64,000 nucleotides of DNA, from contig NZ_FNZN01000005.1 of the NCBI RefSeq assembly GCF_900109345.1, positions 62,001 to 126,000 of the forward strand, given 5' to 3'. A program made the position numbers and the translations under genes. How positions within the stretch are numbered: position 1 is the first letter of the stretch; each line of letters opens with the position of its first letter. Under the pieces are notes generated by a model that did not search any database, was not told where the DNA came from, and was given only the letters and a program-made list of their open reading frames with translations. This DNA is from Maribacter orientalis (GTDB lineage Bacteria; Bacteroidota; Bacteroidia; Flavobacteriales; Flavobacteriaceae). Of the stretch, positions 23,239-62,497 are shown piece by piece.

Positions 23239-24161
23239 AACAAGGGTATAAAGGAGATTTAGGTTTATGGAAATATTTGATTATCCCCGGATGTTTTATT
23301 GGTTTAATGATTGTTAATTATATAGCAATACTTTATTCACCGGTAAGTGTAGAAGATACGATGGCGCAAATGGTTAAGGCCTTAGGGTCTAATGTGGTAC
23401 TGATAATAGTACTTGCCCCACTTGCTGCAGGACTTTTTATGGTACTTGGTTGGACCAAATTAGTTCATTCTCAATCTATAACTTCTTTGACCACCTCTCG
23501 AAAAAGAATAGATTGGAAAAGAGTGTTTTTTGCGTTCGGTATTTGGGGACTTGTTACTGTAGTCTTAACTTTTGTCAGTATTTACTTTTCACCAGAAGAT
23601 TTTAAGTTTAATTTTAAGTTAATACCATTTCTATCATTAGCTGTGATTGGGCTTTTGTTGATTCCTTTGCAAACAAGTTTCGAAGAGTATTTATTTAGAG
23701 GATATATGATGCAAGGCCTAGGCATTTTTGCAAAGAATAGGTGGTTTCCTTTATTGGTAACTTCTGTATTATTTGGATTGATGCATTTGGGTAACCCCGA
23801 AGTTGAAAAACTAGGTTATGGTATAATGGTATATTATATAGGTACTGGTTTTTTCTTAGGTATTATAACTTTAATGGATGAAGGTCTTGAGTTAGCTCTG
23901 GGATTTCATGCTGCTAATAATTTATTTGGAGCTTTGTTAGTTACTGCAGATTGGCAAGCATTTAGTGTAGAATCTTTATATAGGGATGTTTCGCAACCCG
24001 TTCTTGGATGGGATGTCTTGGTGCCTATTTTTGTTGTGTTTCCAATTCTATTAATTATATTCTCAAAAAAATATGGTTGGACCAATTGGAAAGACAAGCT
24101 AGCGGGCAAAGTGTTAAGTAAAGAAGAGTTCTTAGCTACCCAAAAAGAAAAAATTGTATAA
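23229..24161 (+). CDS. CPBP-family intramembrane metalloprotease
   Basis: A 310-aa polytopic membrane protein with about seven hydrophobic segments. The CPBP (Abi/Rce1-like) motifs are SFEEYLFRGYMMQGL (EExxxR), LFGLMHLGNPE (FxxxH) and LGFHAANNLFG (HxxxN/D). Rce1 relatives cleave prenylated proteins; bacterial members have roles in bacteriocin immunity or membrane-protein quality control. Its place between menC and menE, overlapping both, is a conserved flavobacterial arrangement as I recall, but a direct role in quinone synthesis is not established. The start is ATG at 23229, inside the end of menC. Confidence 0.87.
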   Translation: MYIEQGYKGDLGLWKYLIIPGCFIGLMIVNYIAILYSPVSVEDTMAQMVKALGSNVVLIIVLAPLAAGLFMVLGWTKLVHSQSITSLTTSRKRIDWKRVFFAFGIWGLVTVVLTFVSIYFSPEDFKFNFKLIPFLSLAVIGLLLIPLQTSFEEYLFRGYMMQGLGIFAKNRWFPLLVTSVLFGLMHLGNPEVEKLGYGIMVYYIGTGFFLGIITLMDEGLELALGFHAANNLFGALLVTADWQAFSVESLYRDVSQPVLGWDVLVPIFVVFPILLIIFSKKYGWTNWKDKLAGKVLSKEEFLATQKEKIV

Positions 24162-25224
24162 AGTCAAAATACATCCGAGCTTTTGTATTAATGGCAAAGG
24201 ACTTTTAGTAGATGACCTTTTAGAATTCGGCTACAGCTATATTAAGGAAGGTGAGGAGTTTGAAAAATACATAGGGGAATTTGTTTTAGATTGGATAGAT
24301 AATTCGTCAAAAGTTACTGTACATACTTCTGGGTCGACCGGTACTCCTAAAACGATTACACTTAAAAAAGAACAAATGATAAATAGCGCACTAGCAACAG
24401 GGCGCTATTTTAATATTTTCTCTGGAGATTCTGCATTACTTTGTTTACCTGCAACATATATTGCAGGTAAGATGATGCTGGTAAGGGCTATGGTGTTAGG
24501 GCTTGACCTTTATATTGTTCCACCAACTTCAACTCCATTAAATGGTATAGATAAAACATTTGAATTTGGTGCTATGGTGCCTCTTCAGGCTTTGAACTCC
24601 TTATCATCTTTACATCAAGTTAAAATCTTAATTATAGGTGGAGCTTCCATTTCGAGCGATTTAATAGATAAATTGAAAGCTATTGACAATAATAGTTTTG
24701 AAACTTATGGTATGACCGAGACGATAACCCATATAGCGGTTAAACCATTGAATAAGCTAAATAAGTCAAATGTTCCTTTTAAAACCTTACCAGATGTTGA
24801 AATATCAAAAGATGATAGGGATTGTTTAGTGATTAATTCCCCAAAAATAGCTGAGGAAATAGTAATAACCAATGATGTAGTTGAGCTAGTTTCTGACAAT
24901 GAATTTAGATGGTTGGGTCGATACGATAACATGATAAATTCCGGTGGTATTAAATTAAACCCAGAACAAATAGAATCTAAACTTTCAGATATACTACATC
25001 AAAGTTTTTTTATTAGTTCCTTACCAGACCCAAAACTAGGCGAGCAAGTTGTGTTGATTTTAGAAGGTGAGGTTGATAAGGGAAATATAATGAAACACCT
25101 TATCGCCAGTAAGGTTTTGAACAAGTATGAGCTGCCCCGACTTATAAAAGCTATTCCGAAATTCTTACGGACAGATAGCGGTAAGATAAAAAGAAAAGAA
25201 ACAATAGCCTTATTAAAATCATAG
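24154..25224 (+). CDS. menE: o-Succinylbenzoate-CoA ligase
   Basis: MenE, 356 aa, an AMP-forming acyl-CoA synthetase that activates o-succinylbenzoate. Motifs are the P-loop VTVHTSGSTGTPKTITLKKE, SFETYGMTETITHIA, the Asp/Arg block WLGRYDNMINSGGIKLNPEQ and the C-terminal catalytic Lys region LRTDSGKIKRKE. It is about 100 residues shorter than the Bacillus or E. coli enzyme, as is usual for Bacteroidota. The start is TTG at 24154 inside the end of the protease gene; an in-frame stop at 24133 and the absence of an ATG before residue 75 leave no better choice. Confidence 0.9.
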   Translation: MYKVKIHPSFCINGKGLLVDDLLEFGYSYIKEGEEFEKYIGEFVLDWIDNSSKVTVHTSGSTGTPKTITLKKEQMINSALATGRYFNIFSGDSALLCLPATYIAGKMMLVRAMVLGLDLYIVPPTSTPLNGIDKTFEFGAMVPLQALNSLSSLHQVKILIIGGASISSDLIDKLKAIDNNSFETYGMTETITHIAVKPLNKLNKSNVPFKTLPDVEISKDDRDCLVINSPKIAEEIVITNDVVELVSDNEFRWLGRYDNMINSGGIKLNPEQIESKLSDILHQSFFISSLPDPKLGEQVVLILEGEVDKGNIMKHLIASKVLNKYELPRLIKAIPKFLRTDSGKIKRKETIALLKS

Positions 25225-25317: not shown

Positions 25318-27396
25318 ATGAAAAATGCAACATTTCTATTTCTTCTTTTCAGTAGTTTCTTTTTATCCGCCCAACAAATGATGATAAACGGTACGGTTAC
25401 AGATTCCGATGGTTTTCCATTACCAGGCGCTACTGTTTTAATAAAAGGTACTTCGAATGGCACGCAAACCGATTTTGATGGTAACTATTCTATCATGGCT
25501 TATAAAGGAGCCAAATTGGTATTTAATTACATTGGTTATAAAACCAAGGAAATTGAAATTCAAGATTTGGCAATTATCCATGTATCTCTAGAGGAAGATT
25601 ATGAAGCTTTAGAGGAAATTGTTGTAATGGGTTATGGTATTGGCTCAAGTACATATGCAGTTGGATCAGTATCTAGGCTCAATAAAAGAGAATCTCAAAA
25701 AAACAATTTACAACTCAGTATTAGTAGACAGTTACAAGGCAAGGTGAGAGGTGTAGTTATAGATAAAAAAAATAACGAAACTAAAGTTGAACGGCCTCTA
25801 TATATTGTTGATGGCATTCCTATTCAAAAGGAATATAACACCATTGTCGAGAGCTTGAATAACGATGATATTGCAGAAAAAAAAATATTAAAAGGAGGCA
25901 AAGCTAAAAATATATACGGCAATGTAGCTCAACACGGTTGTGTTGTCATTACGACGGTAAACGGTAATTATGTTGTTGAGAAAGATGAAAACTATGCTAG
26001 AATTACAGAAAATCAATTTAAAAAAGCCGAAATTAATCCTTTATCTACTTTTTCTATCGATGTAGATAAAGCGGCCTATAGCAATATTAGAAGGTTCATA
26101 AATAATGGGCAGGAAGTTCCAGTAGATGCGGTCAAAATAGAAGAAATGATAAACTATTTTGATTATGACTACCCTAAACCAACAAATGATCATCCCTTTT
26201 CTATAAATACGGATGTGGCTCAAACACCTTGGAATACTGACACCAAATTGGTCCGAATAGGTTTACAGGGTAAAGAATATTTAAATAAAGAACTACCAGC
26301 GTCTAATCTTACTTTTTTAATCGATGTTTCTGGGTCAATGTCAGACAGTAATAAATTGCCCTTATTGAAATCTGCCTTCAAACTTTTGGTAAATCAATTA
26401 CGAGAGAAGGACAGGGTGTCGATTGTTGTATATGCGGGGGCTGCAGGTATTGTGTTAGAGCCGACCTCAGGTAACAATAAGTTGAAGATTATGAATGCGT
26501 TGAACAAACTAGAGGCGGGTGGTTCTACCGCAGGAGGGCAAGGTATTGAATTGGCCTATAAATTGGCCGAGAAACATTTTAAAAAGAATGGGAATAACAG
26601 AGTAATACTAGCAACCGATGGTGATTTTAATGTGGGATTATCAAATGATAAGGATATGGAAGATCTTATAACTGAAAAAAGGGAGTCTGGTGTTTTTCTT
26701 TCCGTCTTAGGCTTTGGAATGGGTAATTATAAGGATTCAAAATTGGAAACTTTGGCAGATAAAGGCAATGGCAACCATGGTTACATCGATACCATGCAAG
26801 AAGCACAGAAATTATTTGGGAAGGAATTCGGTGGTACTTTATTTACAATAGCCAAAGACGTTAAAATACAGATTGAATTTAATCCCAATAAAGTAAAGTC
26901 TTATAGGTTAATTGGATATGAAAATAGATTATTGGCAGATGAGGATTTTATAGATGATACCAAAGATGCAGGTGAATTGGGTAGCGCACATAAGGTAACT
27001 GCATTATATGAAATTATAGAAGTTGGTATAGATTCAGAATACGTAAAAGAGGTGGCAGATTTGAAATACACGAATAGTGAAGCAAAGGTTGTTTTTTCAG
27101 ACGAATTATTTACAGTGAAATTTAGATATAAAAAACCTGATGGTTTTAAAAGTATCGAATTGGTTCATGTTCAAAAAAATATTAATAAAGAAATGTCCGT
27201 AGATTTTCAGTTTGTTTCTGCAGTTGCGTTATTTGGCCAACAATTAAGAAAATCAGCTTTTACAAATAAAACTTCCTTTAATGATGTTGTTGTATTGGCA
27301 GAAAAGGGAAGAGGAGAAGATGTTAATGGTTATAGAGCAGAATTTATACGATTGGTAAAAAGTGTGAATGAGAAATTAGTAACGGTTAGGCGCTAA
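25318..27396 (+). CDS. Exported VWA/YfbK protein with CarboxypepD_reg and TonB-plug-like N-terminus
   Basis: A 692-aa exported protein. Signal peptide at 1-19 (KNATFLFLLFSSFFLSA). A CarboxypepD_reg-like domain follows at about 22-95 (INGTVTDSDGFPLPGATVLI). A TonB-plug-like segment lies at about 97-222 (EEIVVMGYG; LYIVDGIPI; HGCVVITTV) with no barrel after it. A YfbK N-terminal segment spans about 225-290 (LSTFSIDVDKAAYSNIRRFI). The VWA domain at about 330-500 has an intact MIDAS in FLIDVSGSMSDS and LATDGDFNVG. The rest is the YfbK C-terminal domain. VWA proteins usually bind ligands or assemble complexes. Function in this organism is unknown. A 21-bp-period repeat lies upstream. Confidence 0.8.
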   Translation: MKNATFLFLLFSSFFLSAQQMMINGTVTDSDGFPLPGATVLIKGTSNGTQTDFDGNYSIMAYKGAKLVFNYIGYKTKEIEIQDLAIIHVSLEEDYEALEEIVVMGYGIGSSTYAVGSVSRLNKRESQKNNLQLSISRQLQGKVRGVVIDKKNNETKVERPLYIVDGIPIQKEYNTIVESLNNDDIAEKKILKGGKAKNIYGNVAQHGCVVITTVNGNYVVEKDENYARITENQFKKAEINPLSTFSIDVDKAAYSNIRRFINNGQEVPVDAVKIEEMINYFDYDYPKPTNDHPFSINTDVAQTPWNTDTKLVRIGLQGKEYLNKELPASNLTFLIDVSGSMSDSNKLPLLKSAFKLLVNQLREKDRVSIVVYAGAAGIVLEPTSGNNKLKIMNALNKLEAGGSTAGGQGIELAYKLAEKHFKKNGNNRVILATDGDFNVGLSNDKDMEDLITEKRESGVFLSVLGFGMGNYKDSKLETLADKGNGNHGYIDTMQEAQKLFGKEFGGTLFTIAKDVKIQIEFNPNKVKSYRLIGYENRLLADEDFIDDTKDAGELGSAHKVTALYEIIEVGIDSEYVKEVADLKYTNSEAKVVFSDELFTVKFRYKKPDGFKSIELVHVQKNINKEMSVDFQFVSAVALFGQQLRKSAFTNKTSFNDVVVLAEKGRGEDVNGYRAEFIRLVKSVNEKLVTVRR

Positions 27397-27492
27397 ATAT
27401 ATAAAGACATCAAATTCTAGTTTTTTTAAAGGAATAGACTATTTCAAATGTTGGTTATTTTGTATTTTCAAACAATATATAATTTAACACTT

Positions 27493-28839
27493 ATGAATAA
27501 ACTATTCCTTTTAGTATGCCTGATATTTATTGGCAAAACATATGCACAGCAAATTCTTTCAGAAAAAGAACGTGCAATTGTAATCGATGAAATCTTAGAT
27601 GATCGATTTAATAATCTATTACCTCAATTGATGGATGCAGCTGGGTTAGATATGTGGGTGGTTATTTCAAGAGAGTATAATGAAGATCCAGTTATTAAGA
27701 CAATGTTACCTGCTACTTGGCTAAATGCTAGAAGACGTACAATTCTGTTGTTTTATAGAAATAAAGAGAAAAACACCATAGAGAAACTTGCAGTTGCCCG
27801 TTATAATGTGGGTAAAAATATAGTATCAGCTTGGGATAAAGAACAAGAGCCGGATCAGTGGAAGCGTTTAATGCAATTGATAACAGAAAGAAATCCGAAT
27901 AAAATAGGACTTAACTTTTCTAAAGATCACAACATTGCTGATGGCTTGGTAAAAACCGATTATGAGGAGTTCATAGAGAATCTTCCAAAAAAATACACAT
28001 CTAAAGTAGTTTCTGCGCAGCAACTTGCTGTTCGATGGATTGAGACTAGATCAGAACGTGAAATGGTTATCTATGACCAACTAGTAGATATTACCCATGA
28101 TATTATCGCAGAAGCTTTTTCTGAAAAAGTAATAACTCCGGGAGTTACAAGAACATCAGATGTTGTTTGGTGGATGCGCCAAAAGGTAACCGATTTAGGG
28201 TTAGATACTTGGTTTCACCCTACTGTTGATGTACAAAGAAGTGAAAAAGATAATGCGAGCAAATTTTATTCCTTTGCTGATAAACCAGATGATATGGTAA
28301 TCCTTCCAGGTGACTTAGTGCATTGCGATTTCGGAATTACTTATTTACGTCTAAATACAGACTGCCAAGAATTAGCATATGTTTTAAAACCTGAGGAAAC
28401 TTCAGCACCTGATTTTTTAATCGACGGGCTTAAGGACGGTAATAGGGTGCAAGATTTTTTAACGACAAATATGATAAAAGGCAAGAGCGGAAATGATATT
28501 TTGGCGAAGTCATTAAGTGAAGCTAAGGCAGCTGGTTTAAAACCTTCAATCTACACGCATCCTTTAGGTATGTATGGGCATTCTGCAGGTACCACAATTG
28601 GTATGTGGGATTCTCAAGGCGGTGTTATGCGCGATGATGGGGAAAACTATTTGTTAAACCCCAATACGGTATATGCTATAGAATTGAATACAACTGTCAA
28701 TATTCCTGAATGGAACAGAGATATTCGTATTATGCTTGAAGAAGCTGGTTTTTATGGTGAAGATGGCTTTAGATATGTAAATGGTCGCCAAACAGAATTG
28801 TTGTTAATACCTAGGGTTAAAGGGCATCAGGGTAATTAG
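27493..28839 (+). CDS. Secreted M24 metallopeptidase (Xaa-Pro aminopeptidase-like)
   Basis: A 448-aa peptidase with a signal peptide (MNKLFLLVCLIFIGKTYAQ), a creatinase-like N-terminal domain (LDMWVVISREYNEDP) and an M24 pita-bread domain. Metal-ligand regions seen are LVHCDFGITYLRLNTD (Asp), THPLGMYGHSAGTTIG (His) and VYAIELNTTV (Glu). The first Asp ligand appears to be in the ...DLVHCDFG region only, so metal ligation is not fully verified by eye. It should cleave N-terminal residues before proline in periplasmic peptides. The frame extends upstream to 27448, but the ATG at 27493 starts the signal peptide. It sits between two plug-domain genes on the same strand. Confidence 0.85.
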   Translation: MNKLFLLVCLIFIGKTYAQQILSEKERAIVIDEILDDRFNNLLPQLMDAAGLDMWVVISREYNEDPVIKTMLPATWLNARRRTILLFYRNKEKNTIEKLAVARYNVGKNIVSAWDKEQEPDQWKRLMQLITERNPNKIGLNFSKDHNIADGLVKTDYEEFIENLPKKYTSKVVSAQQLAVRWIETRSEREMVIYDQLVDITHDIIAEAFSEKVITPGVTRTSDVVWWMRQKVTDLGLDTWFHPTVDVQRSEKDNASKFYSFADKPDDMVILPGDLVHCDFGITYLRLNTDCQELAYVLKPEETSAPDFLIDGLKDGNRVQDFLTTNMIKGKSGNDILAKSLSEAKAAGLKPSIYTHPLGMYGHSAGTTIGMWDSQGGVMRDDGENYLLNPNTVYAIELNTTVNIPEWNRDIRIMLEEAGFYGEDGFRYVNGRQTELLLIPRVKGHQGN

Positions 28840-28988
28840 GTTTTTAATTAATACTTCTAAAGCTGTAAAGTGTTTCAGTACGAAAATAGTTATAGATCTT
28901 ATGTTAAGATACGGTTGTTGTTACTATTTTACGATAGGGCTTATTGGTGGTTTTTAACGAAATCACACTTATAATTAACCAGAACAAT

Positions 28989-31607
28989 ATGAATGTAAAT
29001 TGTTTTTTAAATAAAAACCTGCTCATAAGTATATGTGTGGGTTTTTTGCTTTTGTCAAATTGTGTCTTTTCTCAAATCAATTTTAAAGGTGTTGTTACTG
29101 ATGCCGATACCGGTTTGTCTTTGCCTTTTGTTAATATTGGTTTTATCAACAAGGGACTCGGTACGGTTTCAGATGAATATGGTTCTTTTGCGTTTTTATT
29201 CGATTCAGCGAAATTATCTTCCTTGGATACATTAAGGGTTTCTTTTGTAGGGTATAAGGAATATAAGTTGCCATTTTCTAGTGTTATAGATCTGGACATG
29301 AAATCTAACAAAATAAAGTTAGAGCCAGAAGTTGTTAGTCTTAATGAAGTTGTTTTGACCAGTAGCAAAAGAAAGAGGAGAAACAAGACCGAGAAAATGG
29401 TTGGGTATTCTTTTGTAGGTCAATATAAGAATGGTTCTTGGGAAGGCGAAGGTGCCTTAGGTGGTGAGTTAGTGACAAAAATTAACGTAAACAAAAAAAA
29501 TAGACAACTTAATGCCTTCTATTTTTATGTTCTAAAAAACACTTCAGATAGCCTCCTGCTGCGGGTTAACATTTATGACGGAACTACCGATTTTCCTGAA
29601 AAAAAGTTAACGAGCAAGAGTATAAAATATACCCTAAAAACCAAGATAGGTAAGGTCGGTATTGATTTGGCTCCCTTTGATATTGTTGTTGCGGATGATT
29701 TTAGCATTGGTATAGAATTATTAAAAGTATATGGCAATAAATTAAATTTAGTGGTTGCCGGAGACGATACTCCCGGGGTATCTTACCGTAGGTATGTAAG
29801 TCAAGGGGAGTGGAAAAGATACTCTCAAGATGCCTTGACCTATTTTGTGAGCACCACTTTGTTAGAGGAAGGGAATGATGAAGATGATGTATTGTTAGAA
29901 GAAAAATTAACAACAAATTATACCAATGAGCAATTGTTGCAAAGTATAGGTAGAAATATTGGGGTAGTTAGCGGTTTTGTGTTTAAAGAAGGTGAAAGAG
30001 TACAAGGTGTTCAAGTTCAAAATTTATTTTCAAAAGAGGTAACTACTACCAGTGAAGACGGTAGATATAGCATAAAAGCCAAAAGTGGTGACGAATTGAA
30101 ATTCTCATTTGCCTCTTTACAAAGTGAACTTAGAACAGTTTTGGAAACTACATTCGCTATTAATGTAGCTTTAAAAGAACAAGTAACAGAGCTAGAGGAG
30201 GTTACGGTAACTAGTTTTGGAAAGAAAAAAAGAACCCAAGAAGAATTATATAGAGATTTTGATGACGATATTGAAATTATTAAAACATCTTTTGGTATTT
30301 ATAGTAAGCAGACCTCAGGGTATTCTATGAGTATAATAGATGAGTCGGAATTTGGTAGTGGAGCGTCTTCTCTAGGAAATTTATTACGTGGTAAAATACC
30401 TGGGTTAAATATGTTGTCCACGGATAAACTTGATGGTTCAACGGCAATATATTTGAGACAAAACGCCACCAGTAACCCGATACCTGCAGCATTTGAGGTT
30501 GATGGACTTATCGTATCAGGTTTTCCGGAATTTCTAGACGTTTCACAAATAAAGCGTATAGCCGTTCTCTCGGGTTTGGCATCTGTGGCAAAATATGGTT
30601 CAATTGGTGCTGGCGGTGTAATCATCATTAATACAAAAGCAGCTAACTCTTCATCAAAAATTTCAGGTTCTTCCAGAAAAGGTATGGCATATACTCAAGA
30701 AATGGATGAGGTGGTGATAACAGAGGAGGAGGCTCGACGTAATTGGCCAGATTTTTTGCTAGAACTTTATGATAGCCAAAGTTTAATAAAAGCTCAAGAT
30801 ATTTATAATTCTTATGAATCAAAATATGGTACAAACCCTAATTTTAATATTGATGCCAGTACTTATTTTCTTGAATTCTGGGGCAACGAAGTTTTTACAG
30901 AAGAGTTGATATCTAAAAATCTAAATCGTTTCAGTAACAATGTTGAATATTTTAAGGCATTGGCATTTGTACTGGATAAAAATAAAAAATATGACCAATC
31001 TGTATATTTATATAAGCAAATACTACTATTGAAATCGAATTTTGTAGAATCTTATAGAGATTTGGCCAATGCCTATGTAAAGAATGGGCAGAGCGACCGA
31101 GGGGAAAATCTATATGCTAGATATTTCAATTTAATGAAAGAAGGTTTCTTTTCAAAACAACCTGAAGCACTTCAAAATGTAATAAACTCAGAAGTGAAAA
31201 CTTTACTAGACATTTCAGAAAATGAATTGGATAACTCTTTGTCGAATTTCATTTCTGAAGATAATGTAAAGACAAGGATTTTATTGGAATGGAGCGATGA
31301 TGCGGCAGAATTAAATTTTCAGTTCATCTCACCGGACAAAACTGTAAATAGTTGGTCAAACACTCAAGATGGCGAGTTAAAGGAGAGTCTAATTTCTAAA
31401 GGAGTTACCAGTAAAGATTTTTTCATTTATGACAACCAAGGTTCTTGGCAAATAAATGCAGATTATAAAGGGAATAAGTCCGGTTTGGCCACCTATTTAA
31501 AAGTGACTATTAGCACAGATTACGGTTCTGAAAAGCAAAAGGACAGCATAGAACTATTTCGAATGGATATCAAGAATGTGAATAGAAAACTTATTCAAGT
31601 GCCTTAA
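28989..31607 (+). CDS. Exported CarboxypepD_reg / TonB-plug / TPR / DUF2135-like protein without barrel
   Basis: An 872-aa exported protein. A signal peptide is followed by a CarboxypepD_reg-like domain at about 25-115 (FKGVVTDADTGLSLPFVNIG), a beta-rich segment at about 130-310, and a second CarboxypepD_reg-like domain at about 322-400 (VSGFVFKEGERVQGVQVQNL). A TonB-plug domain spans about 424-549 (LGNLLRGKIPGLNM; AAFEVDGLIVSGFPEF; GSIGAGGVIIINTKA). TPR-like helices lie at about 600-740. A C-terminal beta domain at about 757-872 (GSWQINADYKGNKS, TYLKVTISTDYG) resembles DUF2135/YfaP. There is no room for a 22-strand barrel, so it is not a transporter. It is a longer paralogue of the next gene. 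The ATG at 28989 starts the signal peptide. Function unknown. Confidence 0.75.
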   Translation: MNVNCFLNKNLLISICVGFLLLSNCVFSQINFKGVVTDADTGLSLPFVNIGFINKGLGTVSDEYGSFAFLFDSAKLSSLDTLRVSFVGYKEYKLPFSSVIDLDMKSNKIKLEPEVVSLNEVVLTSSKRKRRNKTEKMVGYSFVGQYKNGSWEGEGALGGELVTKINVNKKNRQLNAFYFYVLKNTSDSLLLRVNIYDGTTDFPEKKLTSKSIKYTLKTKIGKVGIDLAPFDIVVADDFSIGIELLKVYGNKLNLVVAGDDTPGVSYRRYVSQGEWKRYSQDALTYFVSTTLLEEGNDEDDVLLEEKLTTNYTNEQLLQSIGRNIGVVSGFVFKEGERVQGVQVQNLFSKEVTTTSEDGRYSIKAKSGDELKFSFASLQSELRTVLETTFAINVALKEQVTELEEVTVTSFGKKKRTQEELYRDFDDDIEIIKTSFGIYSKQTSGYSMSIIDESEFGSGASSLGNLLRGKIPGLNMLSTDKLDGSTAIYLRQNATSNPIPAAFEVDGLIVSGFPEFLDVSQIKRIAVLSGLASVAKYGSIGAGGVIIINTKAANSSSKISGSSRKGMAYTQEMDEVVITEEEARRNWPDFLLELYDSQSLIKAQDIYNSYESKYGTNPNFNIDASTYFLEFWGNEVFTEELISKNLNRFSNNVEYFKALAFVLDKNKKYDQSVYLYKQILLLKSNFVESYRDLANAYVKNGQSDRGENLYARYFNLMKEGFFSKQPEALQNVINSEVKTLLDISENELDNSLSNFISEDNVKTRILLEWSDDAAELNFQFISPDKTVNSWSNTQDGELKESLISKGVTSKDFFIYDNQGSWQINADYKGNKSGLATYLKVTISTDYGSEKQKDSIELFRMDIKNVNRKLIQVP

Positions 31608-31783
31608 GGGATTTTCGCTTTCCAAAATTGAAGTAGCGGTATTTAAAAATTTGGCTGTCACTTTTAAGTATTTATTTAGGGGCAAATAATGACTTCAAAA
31701 GATTTAGTTCGGCGACCAATATTTTTTGCTTGTAATTAATATTTATTTTTTTATATTGTATTGGTTATTAAATTGTTATGAAT

Positions 31784-33538
31784 ATGAAAAATTTAGTTTT
31801 TACTTTATTCTGCTCTTTTTTAATAAATGTAGGTCTGGCACAAAACATAAAAGAAGTTTTTGGTACGATTTCAGATGATTTTGGTTTCTTGGAAAATGTA
31901 ATCGTCTCGGTCAACGACCAAGATACGAGAACTGTTTCTGATGTTAAGGGCAATTATCGTATAGCTGTTGAAGAAGGTGATGTACTTCGTTTTGAACATT
32001 TGGGGAAGTTGCCATTGGAGATCAAGGTGGAAGATGTAACCCGAATCTTAAACATGACGATGTTTGATGATGCAGAAATGCTAGATGAAGTTACCGTAAA
32101 TAATAAACGTTTGAAAACACAGGATGAAAGAGCCATGGAATATGCAACCAATCCAAATATTATAAAAAATGCTTATGGTTATTTGGATAAGGAAACTGCA
32201 GGATACTCAATGCGTATATTAGAAGAAAAAGATTTTGGTCCACATTATACAGATATTGGTACATTAATGAATGGAAAATTTGCAGGTGTCATGGCACATT
32301 GTAATATTTATACTGGGGAAGTTGAAGTAAGTGTTAGAGTAAATAATACCAGTTATGGAAATAATACTGCTATATACGATGTGGATGGTGTTATTATGTA
32401 TAGTTTACCTTGTAGCTTGATCGATCCGTCAAACATTAAAAAAATCGCAGTAATAAGAGGTCAGGGAGGTTCAGGTTTGTATGGTAGTAATGTCATGGGA
32501 GGTGTAGTAGTCATAAATACCAAAACAGGTACATTCGCTTCGGTTCAAAAGGAAAATCTTCAAAGAGCCAAAGAGCGAAACCAAAAGAGTATATATACTG
32601 GTGATGCCATACCCATAGATGCACAGCAAGGTCTTCCAACGTATTTAGAGCGTTACCATCAGAGCCTTTCCGAAACGGAGGCGTTAAATATCTACGCCAA
32701 TGAGCGAGACAAATATGCAGCGTCTTTTTATTTTGTTTTGGATTCCTATGCTTATTTCAAGGAAAAATGGAACAATGATGAATTTGCCGATTCCATCATT
32801 AAGAAAAATTATGGATTGTTCGAAAATAACCCCATAGCATTAAAATCACTTGCCTATATGTACCAGGCCCATATGGAATATGAAAAAGCCAAGGACATCT
32901 ATAAAGAAGTATTCATACTGAGAACGGAGTACGCCCAATCGTATTACGATTTGGCTGAAAGCCATATCGAGAATAAGGAGTATGCCCGGGCGGCAACTAT
33001 TTTTACCAGGTACGATTATTTAAAAGAGCAGGGATTACTAAACGATGAGAAGGGCGATTTCACCCAGTTTATGAATGTGGAGCTGAATAATCTTTTGGGA
33101 TTGAAGGAGAACGATTTTTTATCCTTAAAGGAACAAAGCAAGCTGGTTTCCCATGAAAGTTTCAAGGGCACGCGAATTGTCTTTGAATGGGCCGAGAGCG
33201 AAGCAGAGTTTGAGTTGCAAATGGTAAATCCCGAAAACAGATTCTTTATCTGGAACCATAGTTTAAAGGACAATTGCGAGCAAATAAAGGACGAAAAATC
33301 AATAGGTTATGCCACCAAGGAGTATTTGATAGGCAATACTTACAGAGGGGATTGGCAGGTGAATATCAAATATTTTGGTAACAAAAGTTTGACGCCTACT
33401 TATTTGAAGGTAGCGATTTACCATGATTACGGTACCTTTTCGCAACGAAAGGAAACCAAGGTCTTTAAACTGGCTCTTAAAAACGTGAACCAACAATTGT
33501 TTACGGTCTCCAACATTAGTGGACTGGTTTCTAATTAA
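31784..33538 (+). CDS. Exported TonB-plug / TPR / DUF2135-like protein without barrel (shorter paralogue)
   Basis: A 584-aa exported protein with a signal peptide (KNLVFTLFCSFLINVGLAQ) and one CarboxypepD_reg-like domain (about 22-100; NYRIAVEEGDVLRFEHLGKL). A plug domain lies at about 125-250 (IGTLMNGKFAGVMAHCNIY; TAIYDVDGVIMYSLP; GSNVMGGVVVINTKTG), TPR-like helices at about 290-435, and a DUF2135-like end (RGDWQVNIKYFGNKSLTPTY, LKVAIYHDYG). The domain order matches the end of the preceding protein. From about 32,520 onward the DNA is visibly richer in G+C (about 40% against 28% in the first half, hand counts of 60-base lines). The ATG at 31778 is an alternative. Its stop overlaps the convergent carboxylase stop. 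Confidence 0.75.
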   Translation: MKNLVFTLFCSFLINVGLAQNIKEVFGTISDDFGFLENVIVSVNDQDTRTVSDVKGNYRIAVEEGDVLRFEHLGKLPLEIKVEDVTRILNMTMFDDAEMLDEVTVNNKRLKTQDERAMEYATNPNIIKNAYGYLDKETAGYSMRILEEKDFGPHYTDIGTLMNGKFAGVMAHCNIYTGEVEVSVRVNNTSYGNNTAIYDVDGVIMYSLPCSLIDPSNIKKIAVIRGQGGSGLYGSNVMGGVVVINTKTGTFASVQKENLQRAKERNQKSIYTGDAIPIDAQQGLPTYLERYHQSLSETEALNIYANERDKYAASFYFVLDSYAYFKEKWNNDEFADSIIKKNYGLFENNPIALKSLAYMYQAHMEYEKAKDIYKEVFILRTEYAQSYYDLAESHIENKEYARAATIFTRYDYLKEQGLLNDEKGDFTQFMNVELNNLLGLKENDFLSLKEQSKLVSHESFKGTRIVFEWAESEAEFELQMVNPENRFFIWNHSLKDNCEQIKDEKSIGYATKEYLIGNTYRGDWQVNIKYFGNKSLTPTYLKVAIYHDYGTFSQRKETKVFKLALKNVNQQLFTVSNISGLVSN

Positions 33539-35163
33539 ACCTGTAAAATCCCCATATTGAATTGTTTCTCAATAGGAGCATGATTCGCGGCCTCTATACC
33601 CAATGAAATCCATTTACGGGTATCTTTTGGGTCTATAATAGCATCGGTCCATAAGCGTGAAGCGGCATAATAAGGAGATACTTGGTTATCATATCGTTGC
33701 TTTATCTTATCGAACATTTCCTTTTCCTTTTTATCGGTAATGGTTTCACCTTTCTTTTTAAGAGAAGATTTTTCAATTTGCAAAAGCACTTTTGCGGCAG
33801 AATTACCACTCATTACTGCAAGTTCTGCACTTGGCCAAGCAACGATTAATCTTGGGTCGTAAGCCTTTCCACACATAGCATAATTTCCTGCACCATAACT
33901 ATTACCGATTATGATAGTGAATTTTGGTACAACTGAGTTGCTAACTGCATTTACCATTTTGGCACCATCTTTTATAATACCACCATGTTCACTTTTACTG
34001 CCAACCATAAAGCCAGTAACATCCTGTAAAAATACTAACGGAATTTTCTTTTGGTTGCAATTCGCTATAAAGCGTGTTGCCTTATCGGCAGAATCTGAAT
34101 ATATGACACCACCGAACTGCATTTCACCTTTCGCAGTCTTTACTACTTTTCTTTGATTAGCTACAATTCCAACCGCCCAACCGTCTATACGTGCATATCC
34201 GGTTAAGATTGTTTGGCCGTACCCGGCCTTATATTCCTCAAATTCAGAATCATCTACCAATCGTTTAATGATTTCCATCATATCATATTGTTCCGACCTT
34301 GAACTTGGTAGAATTCCATAAATATCTTCGGGGTTTTCTTTCGGTTTAATACTTTTTTTGCGATTAAATCCCGCTTTAGGGAAATCGCCGATCTTGTCCA
34401 TAATGTTCTTAATGGTGTCCAAAGCTGCAGCATCGTCTTTTGCTTTGTAATCGGTAACACCACTAATTTCACAGTGCGTAGTTGCCCCGCCTAAGGTTTC
34501 GTTATCAATACTTTCACCAATAGCAGCTTTTACTAAATAACTGCCTGCTAAAAATATACTTCCGGTTTTATCCACGATTAATGCTTCATCGCTCATAATG
34601 GGTAGATACGCTCCACCGGCAACACAGCTACCCATAACTGCAGATATTTGGGTAATACCCATGCTGCTCATTATGGCATTGTTTCTAAATATGCGTCCGA
34701 AATGTTCTTTGTCCGGAAAAATTTCATCCTGTAAAGGCAAATAAACTCCTGCACTATCCACTAAATAGATAATCGGTAATTTATTTTCAATGGCAATTTC
34801 TTGGGCTCTTAAATTTTTCTTTGCAGTAATAGGAAACCATGCTCCGGCTTTAACGGTGGCGTCATTAGCAACAACAATGCATTGCTTGCCTTGTACATAG
34901 CCTATTTTAATGATAACACCTCCAGAGGGGCACCCACCATGTTCTTCATACATACCGTCACCTACAAATGCGCCTATTTCTATTCGTTCTGTATTTGTAT
35001 CCAAAAGGTAATCAATACGTTCTCTTGCGGTCATTTTACCTTGGTCATGCTGCTTAGCAATTTTTGCTTTACCACCACCTAAAGAAATCTCGGTAAGTTT
35101 GCGCCTAAGGTCTGATAATAATAACTTATTCCTATCTTCGTTTTGATTGAATTTCAAATCCAT
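33535..35163 (-). CDS. Acyl-CoA carboxylase, carboxyltransferase (beta) subunit
   Basis: Carboxyltransferase of the methylcrotonyl/propionyl-CoA carboxylase type, 542 aa from the ATG at 35163. Conserved blocks are KMTARERIDYLLD, EEHGGCPSGGVIIKIG, VANDATVKAGAWFP, YLVDSAGVYLPLQDEIFPD, GSCVAGGAYLPIMSDEA, VFLQDVTGFMVGSKSE and IIGNSYGAGNYAMCGKAYDP. These are the two crotonase-like halves. Blocks such as DSAGVYLPLQDEIFPD favour methylcrotonyl-CoA carboxylase (leucine breakdown). No biotin carboxylase subunit is adjacent. Longer starts at 35217 or 35277 are open, but 35217 would leave only 18 bp to the divergent oxidoreductase gene and exceed the usual length. Confidence 0.88.
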   Translation of the reverse strand: MDLKFNQNEDRNKLLLSDLRRKLTEISLGGGKAKIAKQHDQGKMTARERIDYLLDTNTERIEIGAFVGDGMYEEHGGCPSGGVIIKIGYVQGKQCIVVANDATVKAGAWFPITAKKNLRAQEIAIENKLPIIYLVDSAGVYLPLQDEIFPDKEHFGRIFRNNAIMSSMGITQISAVMGSCVAGGAYLPIMSDEALIVDKTGSIFLAGSYLVKAAIGESIDNETLGGATTHCEISGVTDYKAKDDAAALDTIKNIMDKIGDFPKAGFNRKKSIKPKENPEDIYGILPSSRSEQYDMMEIIKRLVDDSEFEEYKAGYGQTILTGYARIDGWAVGIVANQRKVVKTAKGEMQFGGVIYSDSADKATRFIANCNQKKIPLVFLQDVTGFMVGSKSEHGGIIKDGAKMVNAVSNSVVPKFTIIIGNSYGAGNYAMCGKAYDPRLIVAWPSAELAVMSGNSAAKVLLQIEKSSLKKKGETITDKKEKEMFDKIKQRYDNQVSPYYAASRLWTDAIIDPKDTRKWISLGIEAANHAPIEKQFNMGILQV

Positions 35164-35235
35164 TCCTTCTATTTTCTTATCTACGGATAAAGATAAGAAG
35201 TTAATTTTGGTGTTCATGCAACAAAAACAAAAAGT

Positions 35236-36207
35236 ATGATTAAGTGGGGTATAGTAGGGGCAGGTAACATTGCACATAGTTTTTCAAAAGATTTAGCCTT
35301 AGTAATTGGCGGTGAATTAACCGCAGTGGCGTCTAGAGATTTAGACAAGGCACGGTCTTTCGCTAATGAATATGGTGCGCCAAATGCATTCGGTAGTTAT
35401 GAAGAATTGTTTACAAGTAATACTGTAGATGTGATTTATATAGCGACACCGCATACCACTCATGCAGAGTTAAGTATTGCTGCAATGAAGGCAGGTAAAA
35501 ATGTGCTTTGTGAAAAACCAGTGGGAGTCAATAAGGGTGAGGTAGAAGCGATGATTAAAGTGGCTAAAGAAAACAATGTTTTTTTTATGGAAGCCTTATG
35601 GACGCGTTTTAACCCTACAATTAAAAAGGTGAAAGAACTTGTAGATAATGGTACTATCGGCGATATCGGTTATTTACATGCAGATTTTGCTTTTTATGCT
35701 TTAGATCGTGACGAAAATGGAAGACTTTTGAATCCTGCTCTTGCAGGAGGTTCATTGTTAGATATTGGTATTTATCCAATATTTTTATCCTATTTAATGT
35801 TAGGTAGACCTAAAGATATAAAGGCAACTGCAAATTTTTATAAGACGGGAGTTGAGGTACAGATAAGTATGATTTTTAATTATGAAAAGGCACAGGCAAT
35901 TTTGTATAGTGGGTTAAATTCTAATTCAGAAATGAAAGCTGAAATAGCAGGTAGTAAAGGTTCAATTTTTGTTCATCCTAGATGGCATGAAACTTCAGGC
36001 TATACTTTGGAAATAAATGGAGATTCTAGTGTCGTTGAGGTTGGTAAAGTTGGTAAGGGTTATACCTATGAAATTGAAGAAGTGCATAAATGCTTAAATG
36101 CAGGGAAAACAGAAAGCGATTTATGGAGTCATCAAAATAGCAGGGATTTAATTGAGATAATGGACACCGTACGAAGTAAGACAGGAATTGTTTTTCCCTT
36201 TGAATAA
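35236..36207 (+). CDS. Gfo/Idh/MocA family oxidoreductase
   Basis: A 323-aa NAD(P)-dependent oxidoreductase. The Rossmann motif is WGIVGAGNIAHSFSKDL, followed by YIATPHTTHAELSIAAMKAG and the signature VLCEKPVGVNKGEVEAMI with the EKP catalytic Lys. The C-terminal domain has FFMEALWTRFNP and GGSLLDIGIYPIFLSYLMLG, a dimeric dihydrodiol-dehydrogenase-like pattern. Substrates in this family are sugars, inositols or trans-dihydrodiols; I cannot choose. It is divergent from the carboxylase gene and stands alone. Confidence 0.9.
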   Translation: MIKWGIVGAGNIAHSFSKDLALVIGGELTAVASRDLDKARSFANEYGAPNAFGSYEELFTSNTVDVIYIATPHTTHAELSIAAMKAGKNVLCEKPVGVNKGEVEAMIKVAKENNVFFMEALWTRFNPTIKKVKELVDNGTIGDIGYLHADFAFYALDRDENGRLLNPALAGGSLLDIGIYPIFLSYLMLGRPKDIKATANFYKTGVEVQISMIFNYEKAQAILYSGLNSNSEMKAEIAGSKGSIFVHPRWHETSGYTLEINGDSSVVEVGKVGKGYTYEIEEVHKCLNAGKTESDLWSHQNSRDLIEIMDTVRSKTGIVFPFE

Positions 36208-61408: not shown

Positions 61409-62497
61409 TTAAAAGTCTATTTCGTTACTCTCTTTCTTTTTCTTCTTCTCTTCTTTCTTTAATTTTTTAAGCTGTTTTTTAGAAGGTCCAAGATCAATGT
61501 CTTCAGCTCCATTGCCTTTGTTTTTATTCTTTTTCCTTTTGTCTTTTTTCATGGCGTCCTTATCAATGGCACCGCCATTTTGATCAGCCTCTTGATCTTC
61601 AATTGCAATTAAGTTGTCTTGATGAAAATCCATTCTATATGAACCTCCTAGTCCTATGAAAATTCGGGAAGGTGTATTTTTTAGACTTGCCCCCATATTA
61701 AAATCTAACTGTAGGTTTTCCTTCAGTAAATGGGCAATACCTCCCCTAATCAATAAATCGGCATACCTATCGCTTTGTATACCTTGGTGCTCTACGAATA
61801 CACTCCATTTAGGGTTTCTAAAAGCATGAGACAGGGAAATTAAATAACTTAACTCAGGGTCGTCAGAACTAATACGGTCATAAGCGGTATTTGTAATAAG
61901 AACGAATCTCGGTGTTATACGACTTTGAGTAGCTATCATACCTCGGTATGATAGGGTTGGTTCGCCAACATAGAAAGGATTGTCACCAATTACGAAATTA
62001 GCACCACCATATAATGAAACGGCCGGAATTAGATTTTTGAACTGAAATTTATTATTTGCTCGCCAGCTATATAAATTTGGTTTATTCGCTTCTGGATTTT
62101 TGAACGGATCGTAGATTAAATATTTTAGGCCCAATCGGTTTCTTGAAAAATCTCTACGCTTTGCTAACAGATTAAAATTTGTGTAAGTGATATCTTGATC
62201 TTGAAAAGTACCTTCGAAATTGATTTCTAATCGTTCAAACAATAAGCCGTAACGTAATGATATGTCACTCGCCCAAATATCAGATTGGGTATTCAATAAA
62301 GTGTGGTCGCGCTGTTCATAGAATACACCTAATTCTGCTTGGACTACATTTTTTCCAACCGCGTATGCACTTACCGAAAGACCTGGTCTGTTAGAATTTA
62401 TAACATCTGTGTATTGTGAAATACCAGCCAAGGGTAGAAATAGTAGAATGATTAAAACGTAATGATATGATTTAGAGTAGACAAATAGACTATTCAT
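61409..62497 (-). CDS. Outer-membrane beta-barrel, phenol MetA-like transporter family, Lys-rich C-terminus
   Basis: A 362-aa exported protein. The signal peptide (YHYVLIILLFLPLAGISQ) is followed by DVINSNRPGLSVSAYAVGKN and VVQAELGVFYEQR, then repeated short amphipathic strands (YGLLFERLEINFEGTFQDQD; PRFVLITNTAYDRIS; NLQLDFNMGASLKNTPSRIF). This matches the putative MetA-pathway outer-membrane family (PF13557). A C-terminal extension of about 80 residues is extraordinarily basic (KKQLKKLKKEEKKKKKE). The substrate is unknown. The ATG at 62497 is preferred over the GTG at 62503. Confidence 0.8.
   Translation of the reverse strand: MNSLFVYSKSYHYVLIILLFLPLAGISQYTDVINSNRPGLSVSAYAVGKNVVQAELGVFYEQRDHTLLNTQSDIWASDISLRYGLLFERLEINFEGTFQDQDITYTNFNLLAKRRDFSRNRLGLKYLIYDPFKNPEANKPNLYSWRANNKFQFKNLIPAVSLYGGANFVIGDNPFYVGEPTLSYRGMIATQSRITPRFVLITNTAYDRISSDDPELSYLISLSHAFRNPKWSVFVEHQGIQSDRYADLLIRGGIAHLLKENLQLDFNMGASLKNTPSRIFIGLGGSYRMDFHQDNLIAIEDQEADQNGGAIDKDAMKKDKRKKNKNKGNGAEDIDLGPSKKQLKKLKKEEKKKKKESNEIDF

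Follow-up and report, generated by a model that had tools for sequence, protein, structure and literature searches.

Three genes on the forward strand of Maribacter orientalis contig NZ_FNZN01000005.1 encode exported proteins, here called p1, p3 and p4, that begin like SusC transporters and continue as something else. They lie within a 64,000-nucleotide stretch (contig positions 62,001 to 126,000), which was analysed as a whole and is called the window below. All three carry an NTE domain, a Ton box or a string resembling one, and a plug in the order found in SusC. A Pfam scan found no β-barrel family behind the plug, where a von Willebrand factor A (VWA) domain or a TPR-DUF2135 region stands instead. 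Both this anatomy and the fact that it is not random are firmly established. At nearly even confidence, we propose that the SusC front end has been reused as a docking or handle module in a sigma-linked, VWA-based form of envelope signalling, of which the genes in the window would be orphans.

A SusC-type front end without a barrel

p1 (25318..27396) starts with a signal peptide, which in all three proteins was assigned by eye. An NTE (CarboxypepD_reg, aa 23-103), the Ton box LEEIVVMGYG (aa 98-107), the C-terminal half of a plug (aa ~158-216), a YfbK-type VWA domain (aa 222-500) and YfbK_C (aa 506-684) follow. p1 thus has the full set of the YfbK family (PF12450, VWA and PF12034 in Pfam), from which it differs by the plug between NTE and VWA. 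p4 (31784..33538) comprises a signal peptide, an NTE (aa 21-97), the Ton box-like string LDEVTV (aa 100-105), a plug (aa 121-248), TPR repeats (aa 283-458) and a DUF2135-like beta end (aa 462-576). In p3 (28989..31607) the signal peptide is followed by a first NTE (aa 33-122), a middle region without a family match (aa ~130-320), a second NTE (aa ~325-412), the Ton box LEEVTVTSFG (aa 402-411), a plug (aa 440-544), TPR repeats (aa ~650-715) and a DUF2135-like end (aa ~750-870). A second Ton box-like string, MDEVVITE, stands after the plug of p3 (aa 572-579, window positions 30702-30725) and may be due to chance.

An earlier sequence-only reading of this DNA had described three exported plug proteins without a barrel, and the domain scans bear this out, with the qualification that p1 has a half-plug only. 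The plug fold is supported by a structure model and a fold search for p4, as that reading had asked, and by sequence for p3; the predicted p4 structure shows the helices of the TPR part and ends in a short beta region, with no barrel. For p1, the 50 fold-search matches listed were mostly VWA-containing proteins, which does not address the half-plug. The assignment to DUF2135 held for p4, which exceeds the PF09906 cut-off of 22 bits (23.0 bits, and 26.6 bits in another scan), and not for p3, which stays under it at 14.6 bits and is related to DUF2135 through its paralogy with p4.

Compared with SusC/RagA transporters (TIGR04056), the three proteins share the NTE-Ton box-plug order, and p4 the plug fold, but they have VWA/YfbK or TPR-DUF2135 parts in place of the barrel, and p1 has only half of the plug. 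Pfam listed no STN domain, a feature of FecIRA-type receptors, in any of the three, and none of them matched a family of the PADLOC anti-phage defence models. By hydropathy, a simple measure, the best 19-residue window scored 1.32 in p1 (after residue 30), 1.41 in p3 and 1.15 in p4; p1 shows no strong transmembrane segment beyond the signal peptide by this measure. The vWA force transducers are described as having a YfbK-like fold, a proposed trans-envelope role, an inner-membrane anchor and a position beside TolQ-type motors (PMC12204202); p1 shares the fold, but has a signal peptide and no such further segment. The sequence-only reading knew of no description of the combination as a system. 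Our literature search likewise found none for a barrel-less plug joined to VWA/YfbK or TPR-DUF2135, and no paper on DUF2135.

Conservation of the plug and the Ton box

Relatives were collected at an E-value of 0.001, which 301 of 7995 scored candidates passed for p4 and all 7999 scored candidates for p1; the best 120 of each were examined. In the alignment of p4 with 71 relatives (n = 72), the plug residues R185, D201, G202, Y233, G234, G240, N245 and T246 are invariant. In p1-type proteins (n = 53) the same is true of the VWA residues D336, S338, S340, T404 and D434, which we take to form the metal site. A contig search returned three loci (Maribacter sp. PR1, Maribacter arenosus and one metagenome-assembled genome), each with a p4-type gene before the acyl-CoA carboxylase-like gene that also borders p4 in the window. 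Between p4 and its counterpart in Maribacter sp. PR1 the plug is 85% identical, with a dN/dS of 0.080 for the plug, 0.087 for the NTE and 0.12 for the whole protein. The plug of p3 gave a dN/dS of 0.08 at a nearly saturated dS of 2.7. These values cover p3 and p4; no relative of p1 was found at the Maribacter sp. PR1 locus compared.

In the SusC protein Bt1763 the flexible box VDEVVV follows the NTE, and its deletion yields a non-functional transporter (PMC7782687). The box of p1, p3 and p4 sits in the same place, right after the NTE. In the p1-type alignment it forms a conservation peak above a variable linker (L98, E100, V101-V103 and Y106), and in the p4-type alignment L100 and V103 are without exception. 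The box region is disordered in the predicted structures (residues 98-108 in p4, with pLDDT <50, and 98-156 in p1). A box also occurs in proteins in which no NTE was detected (L051, L056 and L183), ahead of the plug in L051 and L056. Among proteins with a plug, 24 of 29 have a loose EVxV motif after the NTE, as against 17 of 33 proteins that lack a plug (p 0.015).

Sigma factors and regulators beside related genes

The genomic surroundings of YfbK genes were read at 30 loci, namely nine of the ten in the family (the tenth being the window) and 21 from a second set of 46 genomes. A gene for an extracytoplasmic function (ECF) sigma factor was found within ~4.5 kb at 16 of them, or 17 if overlapping frames are counted, and clustering by BLAST without profiles likewise gave a sigma gene at 16 of the 30. 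All 16 of the profile-based count belong to the 25 loci outside the chromosomal slot described below, as against one of 40 control loci (p 4e-8). The control consisted of 40 menE loci (588 kb), which represent one homologous place in one family rather than a random sample and differ in mean length. A separate regulator-like protein with a TonB_C domain or a plug stands beside YfbK at 13 of the 25 loci and at none of the 40 controls.

The profiles for sigma, TonB_C, regulator and plug were built in-house from five to eight sequences, and five sigma and six TonB_C loci that served in their construction are among those counted. Some loci are also related to each other, L180-L184 belonging to one genus and L197-L200 to one family. 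Pfam confirmed Sigma70_r2/r4 at L172 and L180, and placed TonB_C over the cut-off at L172, L173, L185 and L186 and under it at L174 and L176. Short YfbK-like frames in L057 (without a Pfam VWA match) and L137 were excluded from the counts.

YfbK and the sigma factor are often accompanied by a membrane regulator that bears either an NTE together with a TonB C-terminal domain, or else a plug. The membrane location of these regulators is suggested by hydropathy windows of 1.48-2.22 in 13 proteins; NCBIfam anti-sigma matches in L172, L174 and L176 are far under the cut-off. In L180, L181, L182, L184 and L188 a plug stands where the other regulators have TonB_C. The L180 plug has no Pfam match but matches TIGR04056 (2.9e-14), that of L188 is under the cut-off, and those of L181, L182 and L184 were assigned by in-house profiles and BLAST. 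Two other proteins beside sigma and YfbK genes deserve mention. One is a membrane protein with, in this order, an NTE, a Ton box, a plug and, by an in-house profile match only, a TonB_C-like end (L071:9986-11539); the other is an exported plug-only protein of 176 aa (L189:9809-10336).

VIT-VWA-DUF2135 genes have an ECF sigma neighbour at six of 17 loci in the phylum, four of which (L197-L200) come from one family. Partner proteins of the VIT-VWA genes at L196, L199, L201 and L203 have an end that resembles a type IX secretion tail.

In five cases, L183, L241, L242, L243 and L244, the regulator, plug and YfbK parts are joined in a single frame, and a sigma gene lies directly upstream of each. 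In L183 (773 aa; Pfam Plug 8.5e-14, YfbK_C 8.5e-72), the first 277 residues align with the separate regulator of L180 (E 2e-23) and residues 122-773 with the L180 YfbK protein (65%). The other four (1098, 893, 861 and 988 aa) are among 20 loci from the genus of genome G143, in which 29 of 81 genomes have YfbK; these loci were selected partly for long frames, so that four in 20 is not a frequency. At the same 20 loci a sigma gene was found in 19 cases, a YfbK frame with a plug in 18, and a separate regulator in 15, of which 14 carry a plug. Pfam placed plug and YfbK over the cut-off in four of the five fusions and in L243 YfbK_C alone, and their regulator part rests on in-house profiles and BLAST. 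L241 contains two plug pieces. As all five fusions come from one genus, a single fusion event is possible.

Origin of p3 and p4 and capture of plugs

PF09906 was found in 21 of 198 genomes of the phylum. Twenty of the frames are 993 to 1234 aa long, that of the window being the one short form. The long forms examined read VIT-VWA-...-TPR-DUF2135. p3 and p4 share with the VIT-VWA proteins the end part (NTE-plug-TPR-DUF2135), but lack VIT and VWA. Five proteins from the slot (L051, L054, L056, L057 and L061) have a VWA piece ahead of the plug by a custom profile, with a Pfam VWA_2 match of 8e-4 in L051. p3 and p4 would be derived from VIT-VWA forms, by an order of events that we infer. A separate gene adjoining a p4-type gene (L054:11365-12516, 384 aa) matches the NTE-middle-NTE front of p3, and from this likeness p3 looks like a fusion of such a protein with a p4-type protein.

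Over 215 aa, the NTE-plug cassette of the VIT protein L060 has 64% identity with that of the barrel-bearing SusC L067 (PF00593, 3.1e-23), against 44% with its best VIT relative; judged by these identities, it is a recent capture from a true SusC. A plug tree was calculated from 68 rows and 115 columns, with 14 of 82 plug pieces (<78 aa) excluded. The tree is weakly resolved (19 open forks, unsettled bootstrap) and fixes no count of captures. In it, the VIT plugs are scattered, that of L060 grouping with SusC plugs (99/97), and on account of this scatter an approximately unbiased (AU) test rejects (p 3e-9) a single clade that would unite TPR-type and VIT-type plugs, 33 in all. YfbK plugs occur in several places, nine of 18, including p1, falling into one clade with one regulator-type plug (95/86). 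Among YfbK proteins read outside the window's own family only that of L189 has a plug over the cut-off, the others having an NTE and a linker; its plug groups with the plug of the neighbouring small exported protein (100/100). A short plug-like piece was seen by eye in the L077 YfbK protein, and two YfbK proteins (L073:190-2523 and P0222) have tandem plug pieces, one SusC-like and one a half-plug.

The chromosomal slot

The genes in the window are bordered upstream by an AMP-binding gene (24154..25224, forward strand), presumably menE, and downstream by a gene on the reverse strand (33535..35277) that is presumably acyl-CoA carboxylase-like. A gene for an M24-type peptidase (27496..28839, forward strand) lies between the two halves; it is a conserved neighbour and is not counted in the system. 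This slot between menE-like and acyl-CoA carboxylase-like genes, often with the M24 peptidase, is used by both p4-type and YfbK-type proteins. A menE-like gene was found in 56 of 60 genomes, and 55 menE-like loci (54 and the window) were surveyed, one at a contig end being left out. The slot holds a p4-type or YfbK-type protein at 16 of these, and at 14 of the 36 (35 and the window) where both borders are visible. It is the location in 11 of 15 genomes with p4-type genes and in five of ten with YfbK.

The sequence-only reading had treated the three genes as one cluster and asked for their synteny. Of 60 genera of the family, 15 have p4-type genes (E <= 1e-20), ten have YfbK_C and three have both, as against 2.5 expected. 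A strict three-gene system was rejected on this count; what the genes have in common is the slot and the module. The shared slot can be explained by shared descent, the simplest account being a conserved pair whose members were in some cases lost later. At G147, from the phylum sample, the slot (L167) holds a VIT-VWA-NTE-plug-TPR-DUF2135 protein and an NTE-plug-YfbK protein in succession.

Further proteins were seen in the slot. That of G019 contains a third type with an NTE, a Ton box, a short plug-like remnant and a VWA domain of a different type (L138:5630-7078). A protein of 904 aa with an MG2 domain has the M24 peptidase on one side and a p4-type gene on the other (L055:9606-12317), and an exported plug-only protein has 178 aa (L054:4606-5139).

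A proposed docking handle or a passive module

In the model that we favour, the NTE, Ton box and plug would serve soluble envelope proteins as a docking site and a handle for force or signal. The working part would be the VWA domain in p1, and in p3 and p4 a scaffold of TPR and DUF2135 parts that is akin to the VIT-VWA proteins. In the fuller system of the relatives, an ECF sigma factor would be held by a membrane regulator in a putative anti-sigma role, whose periplasmic end, a TonB-type C-terminal domain or a plug, may contact the cassette of the VWA protein. A ligand at the VWA or TPR part could alter this contact and free the sigma factor, if the signal runs in this direction. The TonB-type domains would bind the Ton box of these proteins. 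The copies in the window probably dock to a TonB-type protein of the cell or to a distant regulator. Such a partner exists in principle in the organism's own genome, where three frames account for four TonB_C matches: two of the frames are plain TonB-like, and the third, of M56 type, has two copies. Through an alignment of regulators, pairs of sigma factors and membrane proteins, typed by eye, were found elsewhere in it (L267 and L270), with other C-terminal parts.

Several observations weigh against this model. No sigma or regulator gene was seen beside p1, p3 and p4 when the frames at 19287-40606 were read by eye, without a sigma profile, and neither was present at any of the five YfbK loci in the slot. 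The relatives share the ECF sigma factor, membrane regulator and TonB-type parts with FecIRA-type signalling; they have a VWA protein where FecIRA has a receptor with a barrel, and the window genes have no sigma or regulator neighbours. A search for Ton boxes, suggested by the sequence-only reading, found them after the NTE in p1 and p3, but in p4 the string is only box-like, the glycine having been lost (LDEVTVNN). The loose EVxV pattern is missing from five of 14 TPR-type plug proteins, while 15 of 30 plug-less YfbK proteins have it after the NTE, so that the box may serve another purpose. Of the 27 TPR-type plugs, those of p3, p4 and their kin, 26 fall into one clade (99/90), and one capture is thus enough for the p3/p4 type.

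The strongest alternative is that the plug, a small and sticky alpha/beta fold, acts in the periplasm as a passive contact or dimerisation module without TonB. This rival is serious, though we give it less credence than a docking role, because some proteins carry plug pieces and no Ton box. Five of these are the plug-bearing regulators (L180, L181, L182, L184 and L188), in which the plug cannot be the usual TonB substrate. Two others are proteins of the organism itself, a lipoprotein-like one of 135 aa with little beyond a half-plug (L049:8142-8549, contig 10; Pfam Plug 1.3e-5) and a membrane protein, assigned by eye to the M56 type, with a half-plug at its end (L268:1507-2988, contig 11), which perhaps point to a more general module. 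p1 itself keeps only a half-plug, and the invariant residues would suit a binding surface. A passive module leaves unexplained, however, why the Ton box is retained as a conservation peak, even without an NTE, and why regulators bear TonB_C in the equivalent position.

The NTE might instead be the working part, docking on BamA or an assembly factor as BamP does and aiding the assembly of outer-membrane proteins, with plug and box as passengers. We consider this improbable, since the plug of p4 is as constrained as its NTE, the L180 regulator has a plug and no NTE, and the linkage to sigma genes would be unexplained. It is still less probable that TonB is the object of competition between soluble plugs and receptors, or that these plugs seal a separate barrel in trans. 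A Ton box and plug without a barrel would suit competition, as would the few TonB_C matches in the genome if TonB is limiting, but competition needs no VWA or TPR partners, no sigma linkage and no regulator fusions. The sequence-only reading had offered competition with TonB, signalling to TonB and a binding module side by side; the sigma-regulator linkage and the fusions in relatives favour signalling or docking. Broken ends of full receptors, named in the same reading as the finding that would overturn it, would account for the SusC type of the cassette, and are ruled out: the frames are intact, with signal peptides and different C-terminal domains, many relatives have a similar length and domain composition, plug residues are invariant and selection is purifying.

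Beyond the docking role itself, the Bacteroidota may harbour a widespread barrel-less branch of the TonB machinery, which would signal across the envelope and be composed of an ECF sigma factor, a membrane regulator with TonB_C or a plug that controls it, and a soluble VWA protein (YfbK or VIT-VWA) bearing both Ton box and plug. Such a mechanical or docking switch without a channel would have arisen with several captures from SusC, p1, p3 and p4 being slot-bound derivatives; we regard this wider view as conceivable and rather doubtful.

The roles of YfbK, of DUF2135 proteins and of the SusC NTE are open questions. If the front ends of transporters indeed serve as channel-less handles, TonB-type docking would extend beyond transport, and a common, testable role would emerge for the genes of YfbK and VIT-VWA proteins, sigma factors and regulators. 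The single-frame regulator-plug-YfbK fusions offer a direct experimental entry.

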